In this document: positions 8,435 to 39,071 of the stretch, one piece after another | How the letters are laid out: each line of letters begins with the position of its first letter | Position numbering within the stretch: position 1 is the first letter of the stretch | Assembly (NCBI GenBank): GCA_007694095.1 | Contig: RECI01000163.1 | Coordinates: 1-51,321 of the forward strand | Reading direction: 5' to 3' | DNA from: Balneolaceae bacterium | GTDB taxonomy: Bacteria; Bacteroidota; Rhodothermia; Balneolales; Balneolaceae | Length of the DNA stretch: 51,321 nt | Notes under the pieces: generated by a model | Databases searched by the model: none | What the model saw: only the letters and a program-made list of their open reading frames with translations | What the model was told of the DNA's origin: nothing | Position numbers and translations under genes: made by a program

Positions 8435-10441
8435 GTGAATTTCCGAATCATCATTACAATTCATTTTATTCTGCTCCTCACAGGCTGCAGCGACAGACAG
8501 GCAGATAATATCAGTACACAAAATGAGAAGGTTTCTGTTGCATTTATGGCAGATGTACATTTTCATGATGTGTTTGCAGATTTTAGTGACGGTTCTTTCG
8601 AGGGACTTCCTGTTTTGATAAATGGTGATACACTTTTTGCAACTGTTCGCACTATGGAATCCCAGCTTACATCCACCCGGCTGTTTAATGAGAATTATTT
8701 TGCATTCAGGGCTGCACTTGATGATGTCGTTAACCGTGGAATCCGGTATGTTGCTTTTCCCGGGGATTTTAGTGATGACGGCCAACCTATTCATATACGC
8801 GGTTTCAGGAAATTACTGGATGAGTATCATCACAAACACGGAATCGAATTTTTTATCATTACCGGAAATCACGACCCGGGCCGGCCTTTCAGTACTCCGG
8901 CGGGTAAATTCAATTATTTGGGGGAAGATGGAAAGCGGCAACCGGTATTCAGCCATGAACATCCAATGTGTGATAGTGACGAACCACGTGGCAGGGGATC
9001 GGAACTGTCGCATGAGGTGATCTGCACAGACGAAGTGAAGCATTACGGTTACCCTGAATTATTTGAAGAACTTGGTCATCATGGAATGTCTCCCAAAGAA
9101 AACTACATCTATTTTGAAACCCCATTCAGCACGTATAACATAGATAATTATAGCTTTACAAAAGCAATGGAAGAATCAGGCTATGAGAACAGACTATTCG
9201 AAATTTGCAGGGAGGGAACCGGAGGTGTATACAGGGAAGATCATTATACAAACTGTTTTGATGTGATGGACATGAGTTACCTTGTTGAACCTGAGGACGG
9301 TTTATGGCTGCTTGCGATCGATGGAAATGTTTATATACCCATGGAAAATGCAGATACCGAATCACCTGAAAACCCTCGGAATTTCGGCAGTCCCGGGAAT
9401 ACCGGATTCAATGCGGTAGTCACCCATAAAACCCATCTAATCGAATGGATAGAAGACGTTGCAGACCGTGCCGGCAGGCTGGGAAAACACCTGGTTGCGT
9501 TTAGCCATTACCCGGCCGTTGATTTTTACAATGATGCGGCTGATAATATCAGGGAACTATGGGGGCGGGGGCGCTTTCAAACATTGCGGCTGCCTGATTC
9601 AGAGGTTAGTAAACTACTGGCAAATAAGGGCCTCCGTCTCCATGTTGGCGGCCATATGCACATGAATGACACGGGAGTTGTCTTTGACGATTCTTCAGGC
9701 AACTGGTTGTTTAACATTCAGGCACCTTCCATTGCGGGTTATGTTCCTGCCTACAAAGTTGTCCATTTTTTTAATCATGATAAAAAGATAGAAGTTGAAA
9801 CGGTTATAGTTGAGAATGTACCCGGTTTCGATACCCTTTTTCCTCTTTATCAAATGGAGTGGGATTTTTTGAATGACTCAGGTTATGAAGAAATTTGGAA
9901 CCATGATATTCTCACAGCAGAAAATTATTATGAATTTAATGACTGGCACATGCGCGAACTTTCCCGGTTGCGTTTTCTACCAAGAGAATGGCCTGAAGGT
10001 ATACGGGACAAGCTGGAAACGATGACAGGTAGAGATATGCTACTTGCCGCACTCTCGGATAATGAATCAGCTGCAATAGAATTGGCAGAAATCATCACAA
10101 CAGAGCATGGCTTTCGTCTTGATGATTTTGATACCTGGGATGGAATGGATCTGACCGTCGATTTTTACCGGATTCGCAATGCAGGCAGTCTTGCTTTCAG
10201 GGACATCCCGGCTGACCGGCTTAATCATTATGCCATTTTAAACGATGTGTTAAATAACCATGAAATGGAGGAAGTGGAGGTGGATAGATTACGGATACAA
10301 TTTGCTATTCTTTTCAATGTACTTAAAAAGTTTGCTACAGGTTACCCTGATGATCATTTTCAGATATATCCCGATGACGGGAAAATACGTTCACTTAAGG
10401 AGATCTATAATCCTTTTGAAAATAAACTCCCCCTTTTCTAA
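8435..10441 (+). CDS. Secreted calcineurin-like metallophosphoesterase lipoprotein
   Basis: 668 residues, GTG start. The signal ends in LTGC with C18 lipidated. Metallophosphoesterase motifs are in order: D40-x-H42 (MADVHFH), D111 (PGDFSDDG), GNHD at 144-147, a FSH motif in the 350s, and GGHMH at about 403. The long C-terminal extension (from about 430) is not recognised. Likely co-transcribed with the preceding phosphatase, 27 bases upstream. The last seven codons, including the TAA, lie inside a GC-rich hairpin repeat, so the native C-terminus ending has been replaced or extended by the repeat. Confidence 0.85.
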   Translation: MNFRIIITIHFILLLTGCSDRQADNISTQNEKVSVAFMADVHFHDVFADFSDGSFEGLPVLINGDTLFATVRTMESQLTSTRLFNENYFAFRAALDDVVNRGIRYVAFPGDFSDDGQPIHIRGFRKLLDEYHHKHGIEFFIITGNHDPGRPFSTPAGKFNYLGEDGKRQPVFSHEHPMCDSDEPRGRGSELSHEVICTDEVKHYGYPELFEELGHHGMSPKENYIYFETPFSTYNIDNYSFTKAMEESGYENRLFEICREGTGGVYREDHYTNCFDVMDMSYLVEPEDGLWLLAIDGNVYIPMENADTESPENPRNFGSPGNTGFNAVVTHKTHLIEWIEDVADRAGRLGKHLVAFSHYPAVDFYNDAADNIRELWGRGRFQTLRLPDSEVSKLLANKGLRLHVGGHMHMNDTGVVFDDSSGNWLFNIQAPSIAGYVPAYKVVHFFNHDKKIEVETVIVENVPGFDTLFPLYQMEWDFLNDSGYEEIWNHDILTAENYYEFNDWHMRELSRLRFLPREWPEGIRDKLETMTGRDMLLAALSDNESAAIELAEIITTEHGFRLDDFDTWDGMDLTVDFYRIRNAGSLAFRDIPADRLNHYAILNDVLNNHEMEEVEVDRLRIQFAILFNVLKKFATGYPDDHFQIYPDDGKIRSLKEIYNPFENKLPLF

Positions 10442-10547
10442 AGGGGGTTGGGGGGATTTCACACAGTGATCCACAAGCAACACACTCTGTACCCCCAACA
10501 CATCCTGTTTTACACCCCCCCCGCCCCCCTTGATAGGGGGGAGTTTT
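10424..10547 (-). repeat. GC-rich hairpin repeat, unit 1 (reverse orientation)
   Basis: The 124-base unit opens with AAACTCCCCC and closes with GGGGGGAGTTTT, forming terminal inverted repeats. Each end has its own hairpin (CCCCCTTTTCTAAAGGGGG on the left). It overlaps the metallophosphoesterase stop codon. Confidence 0.85.
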
Positions 10548-10574
10548 CCTTGTCAAAACTCATAACTCCGCAAA

Positions 10575-10698
10575 AAACTCCCCCTTTCCTAAAGGGGGTC
10601 GGGGGGATTTCACACAGTGATCCACAAGCAACACACTCTGTACCCCCAACACATCCCGTTTTTACACCCCCCTTGCCCCCCTTGATAGGGGGGAGTTT
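10575..10698 (-). repeat. GC-rich hairpin repeat, unit 2 (reverse orientation)
   Basis: A second 124-base unit, 151 bases after the first and nearly identical to it, so the two are tandem. Its final TTT overlaps the TAA stop of the R2lox gene (10697-10699). The 27-base spacer begins CCTTGTCAAAACTCA, which is the reverse complement of the spacer in the array near 15000. Confidence 0.85.
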
Positions 10699-12019
10699 AT
10701 ACACCGAGTTTGTTCATGCGAAGCTGGAACTGCCGTATGGCATAATCAAGGAACCACTCTTTTTCAAGACCAAAAGGAACCACATCATACGGTTCAAAAA
10801 TTTCATGTATGATATTGGTGGCATCGTTTAATAACTCTTCGAGGTGGTCTTCAAATGGGTTTTTAAGTTCAGGGTTATCTGCCAGCAGACGATTAATCAG
10901 GAATAGGCCGTATGCGATATGCCGCGATTCATCCTGTTTCAATAATGTGATACCCTTTTGTAAACCGGGTAGCAAATCATTTTCCCTGAGCATGGTATGA
11001 TATGCCTCATAACCGGTTTCGGCAAGGGTGCCTTCTACAATCATATTGTAAGTGCCGGAAGCTTTTAACTGCGCAAGGGGAGAGGTATCGGTGAAAAGTG
11101 CGTTCAGGTAGAATGGAAGTTTTTGATAAAATAGCTTTTTGTAAAACACGCCATGAAATGATTCAAAATCCGGACGTTCAATCATTACTTCTGCTACAAA
11201 ACGTGAAAAAAATTCGGTGTGTTTCGCTTCTTCCCACAAAAAAGAGGTTAAAAAGATCTCTTCTTCAATACGGCCTTCTTTTGAGATGGTCTGAATAAGG
11301 GGGAGAAGGTCAAGGGTAACAGCTTCTTCTCCCGCCATAAAAAGAGAAGAAAGATGGATGAGGATAGTTCTCTCTTCTTTGTTGAGTGATTTCCACTGCT
11401 CACGATCCACAGAAAAATTTATATCTGATGGATTCCATATACCAAACTTTTTTGCTTTTTGAAAAAGCTGCATCGGGAAGCTGTCGAAATCAAGACCTTT
11501 TTTAGTTGTAACAAATCCGGTATGCTCTTTCCTTACAGAGGGAGGTTCTTTCAGGTTTGCTTTTATTCTTTCCACAGAAGGAGAATCAGAATAAACAGGG
11601 GCCGTATTCAATAAAGATTTGGCTGCCTTGCGGTGTGTAGATAATGTAACAAGACTGCCTTTTTCGAGTTTCAGCTTCCCTTTCATGATCATCATGGTGG
11701 GGTCTTTCTTCTCTTCAATCATCCTGATCCAGGTTTGTTCGTCAGCAGAAAGAACTAAATCAGATCGATCTACATCTGCAGATTTTGCGTACCTTAGTTC
11801 CATACATTTGCCATATTGCAGATTCAGGTAAAAACCAATGGCATTCTGAACATCCAAAATTTTGGGTATTGGATCAATTTTGAGAATAAGTGGCGCATTC
11901 CATTCTGATCCATCTCTATGGTAACTGTCACTTGAATTAATTGATTCTTTCCATTCGTTGATCCAGCTCTCTGTGAAATAGTCTTTGTTAATTTCAACAG
12001 TCTTTTTTTTAAACCACAT
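10697..12019 (-). CDS. SCP2-like domain fused to R2-like ligand-binding oxidase (R2lox)
   Basis: 440 residues. The C-terminal part (about 170-440) is ferritin-like, with the dinuclear metal ligands E231, E264, H267, E329, E364 and H367. The spacings 33, 65 and 35 equal those I recall for the R2lox sites E69/E102/E167/E202. The R2lox cross-link pair is also present: V234 three residues after E231, and Y324 five before E329. R2lox carries a Mn/Fe cofactor and binds a long-chain fatty acid; its reaction is unknown. The N-terminal part (about 45-140) resembles an SCP2 sterol-carrier fold (DPTMMIMKGKLKLEKG). Automatic pipelines would probably call it ribonucleotide reductase beta, which the Val-Tyr pair argues against. 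It is monocistronic. Confidence 0.8.
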   Translation of the reverse strand: MWFKKKTVEINKDYFTESWINEWKESINSSDSYHRDGSEWNAPLILKIDPIPKILDVQNAIGFYLNLQYGKCMELRYAKSADVDRSDLVLSADEQTWIRMIEEKKDPTMMIMKGKLKLEKGSLVTLSTHRKAAKSLLNTAPVYSDSPSVERIKANLKEPPSVRKEHTGFVTTKKGLDFDSFPMQLFQKAKKFGIWNPSDINFSVDREQWKSLNKEERTILIHLSSLFMAGEEAVTLDLLPLIQTISKEGRIEEEIFLTSFLWEEAKHTEFFSRFVAEVMIERPDFESFHGVFYKKLFYQKLPFYLNALFTDTSPLAQLKASGTYNMIVEGTLAETGYEAYHTMLRENDLLPGLQKGITLLKQDESRHIAYGLFLINRLLADNPELKNPFEDHLEELLNDATNIIHEIFEPYDVVPFGLEKEWFLDYAIRQFQLRMNKLGV

Positions 12020-14721: not shown

Positions 14722-14756
14722 AAAACTCCCCCCGACCCCCTTTAGGAAAGGGAGGG
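14722..14756 (+). repeat. GC-rich hairpin repeat, deleted half unit
   Basis: AAAACTCCCC is joined directly to the second-half hairpin CCCCCTTTAGGAAAGGG, so the middle of a unit is missing. It begins one base after the rsmG stop codon. Confidence 0.7.
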
Positions 14757-14786
14757 TTACTTTGACGAGATATGTTTTTGATAAGG

Positions 14787-14907
14787 AAACTCCCCCCTAT
14801 TAAGGGGGGCAAGGGGGGTGTTTTCGGGATTTGTTTGGGGTAAAGAGGTTGGATGTATGTGGAGAGATGGGAGAAATCCCCCCAACCCCCTTTAGAAAAG
14901 GGGGAGT
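14787..14907 (+). repeat. GC-rich hairpin repeat, unit A
   Basis: A 121-base unit: AAACTCCCCCCTATTAAGG hairpin, a variable middle containing TTGTTTGGGGTAAAGAGGTT, then the CCCCCTTTAGAAAAGGGGG hairpin and GAGT end. Confidence 0.85.
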
Positions 14908-14939
14908 AATTTGTGCAGGACTGTAAGTTTTGACAAGAA

Positions 14940-15064
14940 AAACTCCCCCCTATCAAGGGGGGCAGGGGGGGTGTTAAACCGGGATGTGTTGGGGGCAAAG
15001 AGGTTGGCTGATGGTAGTAAAGTGTGTGAAATCCCCCCCCGACCCCCTTTAGGAAAGGGGGAGT
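14940..15064 (+). repeat. GC-rich hairpin repeat, unit B
   Basis: A 125-base unit starting 153 bases after unit A. The spacer that follows (15065-15095) reads AATTTGTGCAGGACTG and ends GACAAGG, just before the DUF559 cassette. Confidence 0.85.
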
Positions 15065-15165
15065 AATTTGTGCAGGACTGTGTGGTTAGACAAGGAGATT
15101 TATTATTTTCCCGAAAATTGCTTGTCAATTAATTGGAAGTCGCCATTAAAAATAATCAAAAGAGT

Positions 15166-15528
15166 ATGAGAATTTATTACAATCCAAAATTAAAAGAGAG
15201 AGCAAGAGAACTGCGTAATAATTCCACATTGTCAGAAATCCTGTTGTGGAATGAAATAAAGCAGAGAAAAATGCTGGGATATCAATTTTACCGGCAAAGG
15301 CCCATTGGTAATTATATTGTGGATTTTTTTTGTTTTAAACTTAGATTAGTAATCGAAATTGACGGAAACAGCCATGACGAATGCAAGTTCGAATATGACA
15401 TGAAACGTCAGAATTACCTTGAATCTTTGGGGTTCACTGTATTAAGATTTGATGATCTTGAAGTAAAGAAAGATATTGATAATGTATTGAGGGTGATTGA
15501 ATCTTGGATTTGTGAGAATGCGAATTGA
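15166..15528 (+). CDS. DUF559 (Vsr-like PD-(D/E)xK) endonuclease-domain protein
   Basis: 120 residues from the ATG at 15166; an in-frame TTG at 15133 would add 11 residues, giving 131. DUF559 belongs to the restriction-endonuclease-like fold. In the 131-residue numbering, visible residues are E35, D64 in IVDFF, E75 and D77 in VIEIDG, H81, and the closing FTVLRF strand. It would be a cytoplasmic nuclease; its substrate is unknown. It sits alone inside the hairpin-repeat array, bounded by unit B's spacer on the left and by a 15-base copy of the spacer end on the right. Its TGA stop is the first codon of that copy (TGAGTTTTAACAAGG). This suggests insertion with target duplication, or a full-length element whose short repeats are derivatives. 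Confidence 0.85.
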   Translation: MRIYYNPKLKERARELRNNSTLSEILLWNEIKQRKMLGYQFYRQRPIGNYIVDFFCFKLRLVIEIDGNSHDECKFEYDMKRQNYLESLGFTVLRFDDLEVKKDIDNVLRVIESWICENAN

Positions 15529-15540
15529 GTTTTAACAAGG

Positions 15541-15663
15541 AAACTCCCCCCTATCAAGGGGGGCAGGGGGGGTGTTAAATCGGGATTTGTTTGAGGCAAA
15601 AAGGTTGGTTGCTAGTTGTAAAGTGTGTGAAATCCCCCCGGCCCCCTTTAGGAAAGGGGGAGT
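15541..15663 (+). repeat. GC-rich hairpin repeat, unit C
   Basis: A 123-base unit starting directly after the spacer-end copy that closes the DUF559 cassette. Confidence 0.85.
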
Positions 15664-15694
15664 AATTTGTGCAGGACTGTGAGTATTAACAAGG

Positions 15695-15817
15695 AAACTC
15701 CCCCCTATCAAGGGGGGCAGGGGGGGTGTTAAATCGGGATTTGTTGGGGGCAAAAAGGTTGACTGCTGGTATTAAAGTGTGTAAAATCCCCCCGCCCCCC
15801 TTTAGGAAAGGGGGAGT
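15695..15817 (+). repeat. GC-rich hairpin repeat, unit D
   Basis: A 123-base unit, 154 bases after unit C and nearly identical to it. Confidence 0.85.
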
Positions 15818-15849
15818 AATTTGTGCAGGACTGTGAGTTTTGACAAAGA

Positions 15850-15971
15850 AAACTCCCCCCTAATAAGGGGGGCAGGGGGGTGTTTTCGGGATTTGTTTGG
15901 GGGTAAAGAGGTTGATTGCTTGTAGTAAAGTGTGTGAAATCCCCCCAGCCCCCCTTTAGGAAAGGGGGAGT
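15850..15971 (+). repeat. GC-rich hairpin repeat, unit E, followed by a degenerate start
   Basis: A 122-base unit, 155 bases after unit D. Its spacer leads into a decayed copy of the next unit start at about 16001-16022 (CCTCTATCAGGGCA). The rest of the gap to 16060 holds nothing else. Confidence 0.85.
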
Positions 15972-16060
15972 AATTTGTGCAAGATTGTGAGTTTTGAAAA
16001 TGGAATTTCCTCTATCAGGGCATAAAATTTTTTACCTTCCATGCGAACCGTAATTTATAA

Positions 16061-38820: not shown

Positions 38821-39071
38821 AAACTCCCCCTATCGAGACTACGAAAAAATACCACGGAAACTCAGAAAAGCACGGAATGTTCTGTAGTTTTCCGTGTTTC
38901 CGTGGCAATAAACACGATATGATTTTTTGTGATTTTGTTGATTGTGCATATTCTCACAGCCTCTAAAAGGGGGGGCAGTGGGTGTAAATCGGAATGTGCT
39001 CAGGAGAAGGGACTGGTTGTCGGTGGAGAATTGCATCACATCCCCCCGTTCCCCTTTAGGAAAGAGGGAGC
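38821..39071 (-). repeat. GC-rich hairpin repeat, decayed and interrupted
   Basis: AAACTCCCCCTATC (38821-38834) and AAAAGGGGGGGCAGTGGG (from about 38966) are the two sides of a unit's first hairpin, separated by about 130 bases of other sequence. The unit then continues to GGAAAGAGGGAG next to the ybbR stop. The insert carries a hairpin with arms CCACGGAAACTCAGAAAAGC and GTTTTCCGTGTTTCCGTGG, another repeat family. Confidence 0.7.

Follow-up and report, generated by a model that had tools for sequence, protein, structure and literature searches.

Genes of the DUF559 family are physically paired, widely and specifically, with palindromic repeats of the intrastrand-triplex type; the repeats co-vary with the genes they accompany, and some sites that hold a gene-bearing element in one genome are empty in its relatives. 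In our reading DUF559 is probably the dedicated nuclease of these phylum-spanning palindromic repeats, with a gene and its cognate repeats making up one selfish or domesticated pair. E. coli has been known to carry triplex-type palindromes since the 1990s, and we know of no enzyme that accounts for their spread. Such palindromes rank with the most widespread repeats of bacteria, DUF559 is itself very common, and a link between them gives each a testable role. DUF559 is the best candidate yet for the spreader of these repeats.

The array from which this analysis starts lies in a window of 51,321 nucleotides, by which we mean the whole stretch of DNA analysed (Balneolaceae bacterium, GCA_007694095.1, contig RECI01000163.1, positions 1-51,321). 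A sequence-only reading of the window had proposed a system like REP/RAYT with a different enzyme. The likeness holds for the inverted frame around the gene, the dispersed gene-less copies, the co-diversification of enzyme and hairpin and the mostly divergent gene copies within a genome, and the framing of a DUF559 gene by its own hairpin repeats proved to be a general rule. That reading missed that the window repeats belong to a known class, named BoxC, PIT element or intrastrand triplex motif (Hoyne and Maher 2000).

The window array and its nuclease gene

The array stands between rsmG and a WYL regulator gene in a genome of 4.56 Mb on 324 contigs. It holds five full units of 121-125 bp, read directly and recomputed, each built as hairpin-CA-GGGGGG ... 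CCCCCC-NN-hairpin with AAACT/AGT ends. Spacers of 32, 476, 31 and 32 bp separate units 1-5, and the period is 153-155 bp except across the gene. The features of the window are as follows.

14723..14756, plus strand: half unit, right arm only
14787..14907, plus strand: repeat unit 1, hairpin-CA-GGGGGG ... CCCCCC-NN-hairpin
14940..15064, plus strand: repeat unit 2, its right arm being the left frame of the DUF559 gene
15065..15540, plus strand: gene-holding spacer of 476 bp, standard spacer ends kept on both sides
15133..15528, plus strand: DUF559 gene, Vsr/EDxHD-type PD-(D/E)XK nuclease (open reading frame, PF04480 E 3.8e-36)
15526..15540, plus strand: spacer-end copy TGAGTTTTAACAAGG, source of the TGA stop codon of the DUF559 gene
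15541..15663, plus strand: repeat unit 3, its left arm being the right frame of the DUF559 gene
15695..15817, plus strand: repeat unit 4
15850..15971, plus strand: repeat unit 5
10424..10546, minus strand: repeat unit at a second site, without a nuclease gene
10575..10698, minus strand: repeat unit at the second site, without a nuclease gene
about 38821..39070, plus strand: decayed unit

Rereading and recomputing the coordinates bore out the earlier description of a tandem array of five units with a half unit, of two further units at 10424-10698 and a decayed one near 38821, and of a DUF559 gene set into an array spacer. The 476-bp spacer begins with the standard AATTTGTGCAGGACTGT..GACAAGG (GACAAGG at 15089-15095), and the ends of the split spacer lie on either side of the gene, which is placed between the right arm and the left arm of neighbouring units. 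At the second site, the last codons and the stop of the open reading frame at 8435-10441 come from the unit pair, which overlaps the 3' end of that frame; the pair also runs up to the stop of the open reading frame at 10697-12019.

A genome-wide count of units, which the sequence-only reading had proposed as a check, gave 27 places matching one array unit by blast. These include two more full units on contig 239; the rest are single arms on many contigs, mostly away from any DUF559 gene, and 12 of the 14 single arms checked are intergenic. The hairpin pattern gave 48 forward and 22 reverse hits in this genome, some of them overlapping, and a control pattern read backward gave none in the same genome, which argues that the repeats of the array are not due to chance. 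The GTAG/CGTC tag of REP/RAYT repeats was not seen at the foot of the stems in the window units.

The DUF559 protein has 131 amino acids when read from TTG, or 120 from an in-frame ATG at 15166. A Pfam search returned PF04480 and a weak PD-(D/E)XK relative and nothing else, and residues E35, D64, E75 and H81 fall in invariant alignment columns (E, D, E and H). An AlphaFold2 model built from an alignment of 42 related-locus sequences reached a pLDDT of 89.6 (a single sequence gave 36), and its structural matches were NGO0050 (3hrl, Z 15.9), the homing endonuclease I-Bth0305I (3r3p, Z 12.8) and Vsr (Z 10.8). I-Bth0305I, also matched by sequence (E 3.2e-6), is the nearest characterised structure with known activity, and the predicted fold also resembles resolvases such as Hjc. 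Modelled fold and acidic residues together point to the PD-(D/E)XK superfamily, in which YcjD had already been placed (PMC1189080), and the model suggests the Vsr-like EDxHD fold of the EDxHD homing endonucleases. The DUF559 protein is under purifying selection: dN/dS was 0.08 between the window gene and its orthologue in another genome (G332), and 0.04-0.27 in other DUF559 comparisons.

The genome carries two DUF559 genes. The second lies on contig 187 between near-perfect inverted copies of its own hairpin (AAAAGTCCCCTCTTGAGAGGGGATTTAGGGGTGTGT ... gene ... ACACACCCCTAAATCCCCTCTCGATAGGGGACTTTT), which differs from the hairpin of the window array. The highest DUF559 identity within a genome was 0.34-0.65 in eight of nine genomes and 0.93 in one. 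Copies in the same genome are therefore divergent, and the gene is not spreading like an insertion sequence; expansion of that kind, which would leave near-identical copies, is ruled out.

Hairpins beside DUF559 genes and their match to the protein

DUF559 is present in 221 of 394 genomes of the phylum. Counting hairpins with a perfect stem of at least 7 and at least 5 G/C in the arm, the density near 109 DUF559 genes of the phylum was 5.7-6.9 per kb in the first 100 bp upstream, with about 4 per kb on the downstream side, and fell roughly 20-fold to about 0.1-0.5 per kb beyond 500 bp. Among 80 loci fetched without prior inspection, 60 had a hairpin within 200 bp (6 and 4 in windows 1 kb away). 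A scan with a consensus DUF559 protein gave 80 multi-phylum loci, which are thus the best-scoring ones and not a random draw; 68 of them had a hairpin within 200 bp (6 and 5 in windows 2 kb away). This set covers Chloroflexota, Pseudomonadota, Nitrospirota, Nitrospinota, Omnitrophota, Elusimicrobiota, Planctomycetota, Calditrichota, patescibacterial groups, Spirochaetota and others.

The sequence-only reading had suggested looking at the repeats around each DUF559 gene and had held that genes normally found away from such repeats would speak against it. With both sets pooled, the opposite was seen: 168 of 189 loci had a hairpin within 300 bp of the domain, 113 of them on both sides, and 21 had none within that distance under the same stem definition. 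The hairpins are also of a particular kind. Pyrimidines make up 95% of the 5' arm near DUF559 genes vs 61% far away, and a third block, of pyrimidines or purines, accompanies hairpins near DUF559 genes in 83% of cases, against 33% for far hairpins and 14% for hairpins beside RAYT genes. The full three-block form was found at 157 of the 189 loci and in all ten intact hairpins of the window.

Repeat and gene co-occur at the level of genomes as well. DUF559 was found in 21 of 23 genomes with at least four hairpin hits and in 200 of 371 others (p 3e-4), by a narrow pattern that misses most other hairpin types. Two phylum genomes, G076 and G255, have several triplex-type hairpins where DUF559 was not found, as might follow from gene loss or from another mover. 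As a separate observation, a DUF559 gene with similar C/G-rich ends splits a 4-hydroxyphenylacetate catabolic cluster on a plasmid of Deinococcus sp. NW-56 (L340:2965-3303).

Each gene is accompanied by its own type of hairpin. The left and right hairpins of one gene had a similarity of 0.859, against 0.578 for random pairing (z 16.7), and were identical in 49 of 105 pairs. Protein identity and hairpin similarity were correlated in the multi-phylum set (Mantel r 0.485; the largest of 1000 permutations gave 0.12), where proteins 60-70% identical had a hairpin similarity of 0.92. The correlation in the one-phylum sample was 0.152, above all permutations, and 0.073 without close pairs, a value no longer clear of the permutations. 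Hairpins of the CCCTCTCCC type occurred in all 14 genomes whose DUF559 carries that type, the gene's own flanks being counted, and in 5 of 17 others. The frame was inverted at 54 of 66 decidable loci (p 1.7e-7). The third blocks point inward at 36 of 50 free DUF559 genes, and outward at in-frame insertions and at the window gene. Chance or terminator hairpins are ruled out by the decay with distance, the pyrimidine bias, the cognate match and the co-variation.

Occupied and empty sites

A comparison with empty sites in close relatives, another check that had been proposed, showed a gain at the window site: the gap between rsmG and the WYL gene measures 1343 bp in the window genome, whereas most congeners that share the gene order have 71-374 bp there and no hairpins. 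The nearest relative does have the hairpins, another congener has two hairpins of another type, and the window type is missing from gaps of 608 and 1015 bp in two further congeners. An orthologous array with a DUF559 gene follows rsmG in G332.

At about one third of the phylum loci, DUF559 lies in frame inside a larger gene. Hosts confirmed by Pfam with DUF559 in mid-protein are HsdR, RecG, a methylmalonyl-CoA-mutase-type protein, MetH, LeuRS (at two sites) and a UvrD-like helicase, and at the in-frame loci L075, L054, L153, L093, L133, L089 and L129 the hairpins are translated within the host protein. No intein domain was found in the seven host proteins scanned. Nuclease modules are thereby carried in frame within MetH, LeuRS, RecG and restriction subunits.

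The MetH gene is interrupted at one place in about 9 of 59 species of one genus. The insert, GCCCCCC-A-GCCCCCGAAGGGGGAG ... gene ... CTCCCCCTTCGGGGGC-GGGGGGGGC, is open in frame and replaces a variable linker of about 25 bp, with flanks about 93% identical to an empty relative; its ends are recognisable in seven further species. The MetH insertions group in the tree inside a lineage of 32 rows (support 100/98) that holds most DUF559 insertions into housekeeping genes.

In E. coli the DUF559 gene is ycjD (PF04480 E 1.4e-49), which lies between sapF and fabI (L342:3481-4202) with a BoxC arm between ycjD and fabI and a degenerate or intact arm at the ycjD 3' end. It is present in 3365 of 5426 complete E. 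coli genomes, mostly once each, and the BoxC repeat occupies a median of 19 places per genome. Among the regions read, strains without ycjD have other genes after sapF. Alleles with and without the repeat were found at three E. coli intergenic sites, differing over more than the hairpin, and neither these sites nor the empty MetH sites gave a clean target-site duplication. One such repeat site, trpS-yhfZ of strain HH45 (L370), has long C, G and A runs that are probably a sequencing fault at a structured repeat. The pairing of ycjD with BoxC in K-12 provides a model-organism handle on DUF559 and triplex-type repeats.

Repeats also persist in strains that have no ycjD, which is evidence against DUF559 as the mover. 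There are 15 copies in O157 strains (O157:H7, the absence of ycjD being read at the locus of one O157 strain), and 21 in ECamp083, though only 4 in the ycjD-negative strain 09-02E, and 16 pattern hits were counted in a genome of the phylum sample where DUF559 was not found. The sequence-only reading had named repeats abundant in genomes without DUF559 as an observation that would tell against it, and in these genomes this is partly the case.

Interpretation and comparison with known systems

The nuclease would recognise, cut and promote the copying of its repeats. In this model, the Vsr/EDxHD-type enzyme would recognise the folded repeat or its C/G-run tail and cut at the repeat or at a target, and host repair or replication would copy the repeat, or the repeat-gene-repeat unit, into the break; in the window, such a process may have given rise to the array between rsmG and the WYL regulator. 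We also lean, somewhat less firmly than for the dedicated nuclease, towards a wider reading: a separate class of bacterial mobile element with a Vsr/EDxHD-type nuclease and triplex-forming palindromes as its ends, which moves in gene-bearing and gene-less forms, has one lineage that enters essential proteins in frame, and would have left the BoxC/PIT/triplex repeats as its products, among them the ones that E. coli K-12 carries together with YcjD.

DUF559 might instead process the repeats without mobilising them, as a repair enzyme that cuts polymerase-stalling triplex hairpins, the linkage being kept by selection and the spread being due to replication or repair errors. Triplex repeats do form triplexes and block polymerase in vitro, and they mark unstable loci (PMC4666352); the predicted fold is like that of Hjc resolvases and of the repair enzyme Vsr. 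We nevertheless consider this unlikely, since it leaves unexplained the inverted-repeat frame of the gene, the presence of only the cognate type nearby, and the gene with its ends lying in frame in MetH and LeuRS where relatives are empty.

Homing is a further alternative, at least for the in-frame lineage: DUF559 would cut empty alleles of MetH, LeuRS and other hosts, repair would then copy it into the break, and the hairpins would be accessory. The resemblance to I-Bth0305I and the patchy occupancy of the MetH site agree with it, as does the clustering in the tree of insertions at one host site (25 label changes vs 52 when shuffled). The same lineage, however, occurs in several unrelated genes and at free positions, no splicing domain was found in the seven host proteins scanned, and most DUF559 genes are intergenic with dispersed repeats, so that we give homing little chance.

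That the repeats are moved by something else, be it a HUH transposase of RAYT type or machinery of the host, with the DUF559 gene as a passenger in some copies, is very improbable. The window genome does have five Y1_Tnp genes, and Y1_Tnp is present in 83 of 118 phylum genomes, but polypyrimidine hairpins were absent near its own five Y1_Tnp loci and lay beside just one of 30 others, and a passenger gene would not co-diversify with the repeat. The hairpins adjacent to Y1_Tnp are classical REP-like palindromes; the same method found them at 15 of 30 Y1_Tnp loci and so detects the known REP/RAYT pairing. RAYT as the main mover is rejected on the near absence of polypyrimidine hairpins from Y1_Tnp loci. 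Finally, we find it scarcely credible that DUF559 serves mismatch repair as a Vsr-like nuclease associated with cytosine methylases, the hairpins being terminators or chance neighbours: the fold is Vsr-like and the genetics of a Caulobacter DUF559 protein (VsrA) led to its proposal as a Vsr mismatch nuclease (PMC12907096), but matching hairpins on two sides, third blocks, co-variation and in-frame copies are not properties of terminators.

The paired nuclease and repeats that we favour share features with several known systems. Rickettsia palindromic elements are palindromic DNA lying in frame in protein genes, as the in-frame DUF559 copies do, and we know of no enzyme for them, whereas the ends of the DUF559 element are tied to a nuclease. 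Vsr repair endonuclease has the same fold and catalytic region, but its activity is mismatch cutting, and DUF559 is linked to repeats. The EDxHD/Vsr-like homing endonucleases (I-Bth0305I) share fold, sequence relatedness, insertion into conserved genes and patchy presence; DUF559 differs in its flanking palindromes and dispersed non-coding copies, and we saw no intron or intein. An evolution experiment with Legionella pneumophila Paris is reported to have found recombination hotspots in three repeated segments that contain DUF559 and a transposase (PMC12308824).

The intrastrand triplex motif (BoxC, PIT element) was reported in more than 260 genomes, with 23 copies in E. coli MG1655 and five inverted pairs, in each of which an arm of type A is joined to one of type B (Holder et al. 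2015, PMC4666352). Triplex formation by the isolated strand was demonstrated there for the E. coli motif, not the window sequence, and the authors state that mobility functions were never found near the repeats (PMC4666352). Our repeats share with this class the three-block anatomy, the inverted pairing of a type A with a type B arm and the wide spread, and the window units have its two-arm design (CA and GG/CC second loops). The difference is that the class was published without a linked enzyme, and here DUF559/YcjD is the linked gene. Our search of the open-access literature, with subscription papers and most preprints outside it, found no published link between DUF559 and triplex repeats.

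The closest parallel in organisation is REP/REPIN with RAYT (TnpA-REP), where a divergent enzyme gene also stands in an inverted hairpin frame, gene-less pairs are dispersed and enzyme and repeat co-vary. In the DUF559 pair the enzyme is PD-(D/E)XK and Vsr-like, not Y1 HUH (PF01797), the hairpin is polypyrimidine/polypurine with a third block, and the gene also occurs in frame inside other genes. The inverted frame, dispersed copies, co-variation and empty sites suggest that the DUF559 pair works like REP/RAYT with an unrelated, Vsr-like enzyme; lacking a Y1 HUH enzyme, it is not a member of that family. An arrangement like REP/RAYT would thus have arisen with a wholly different enzyme fold.
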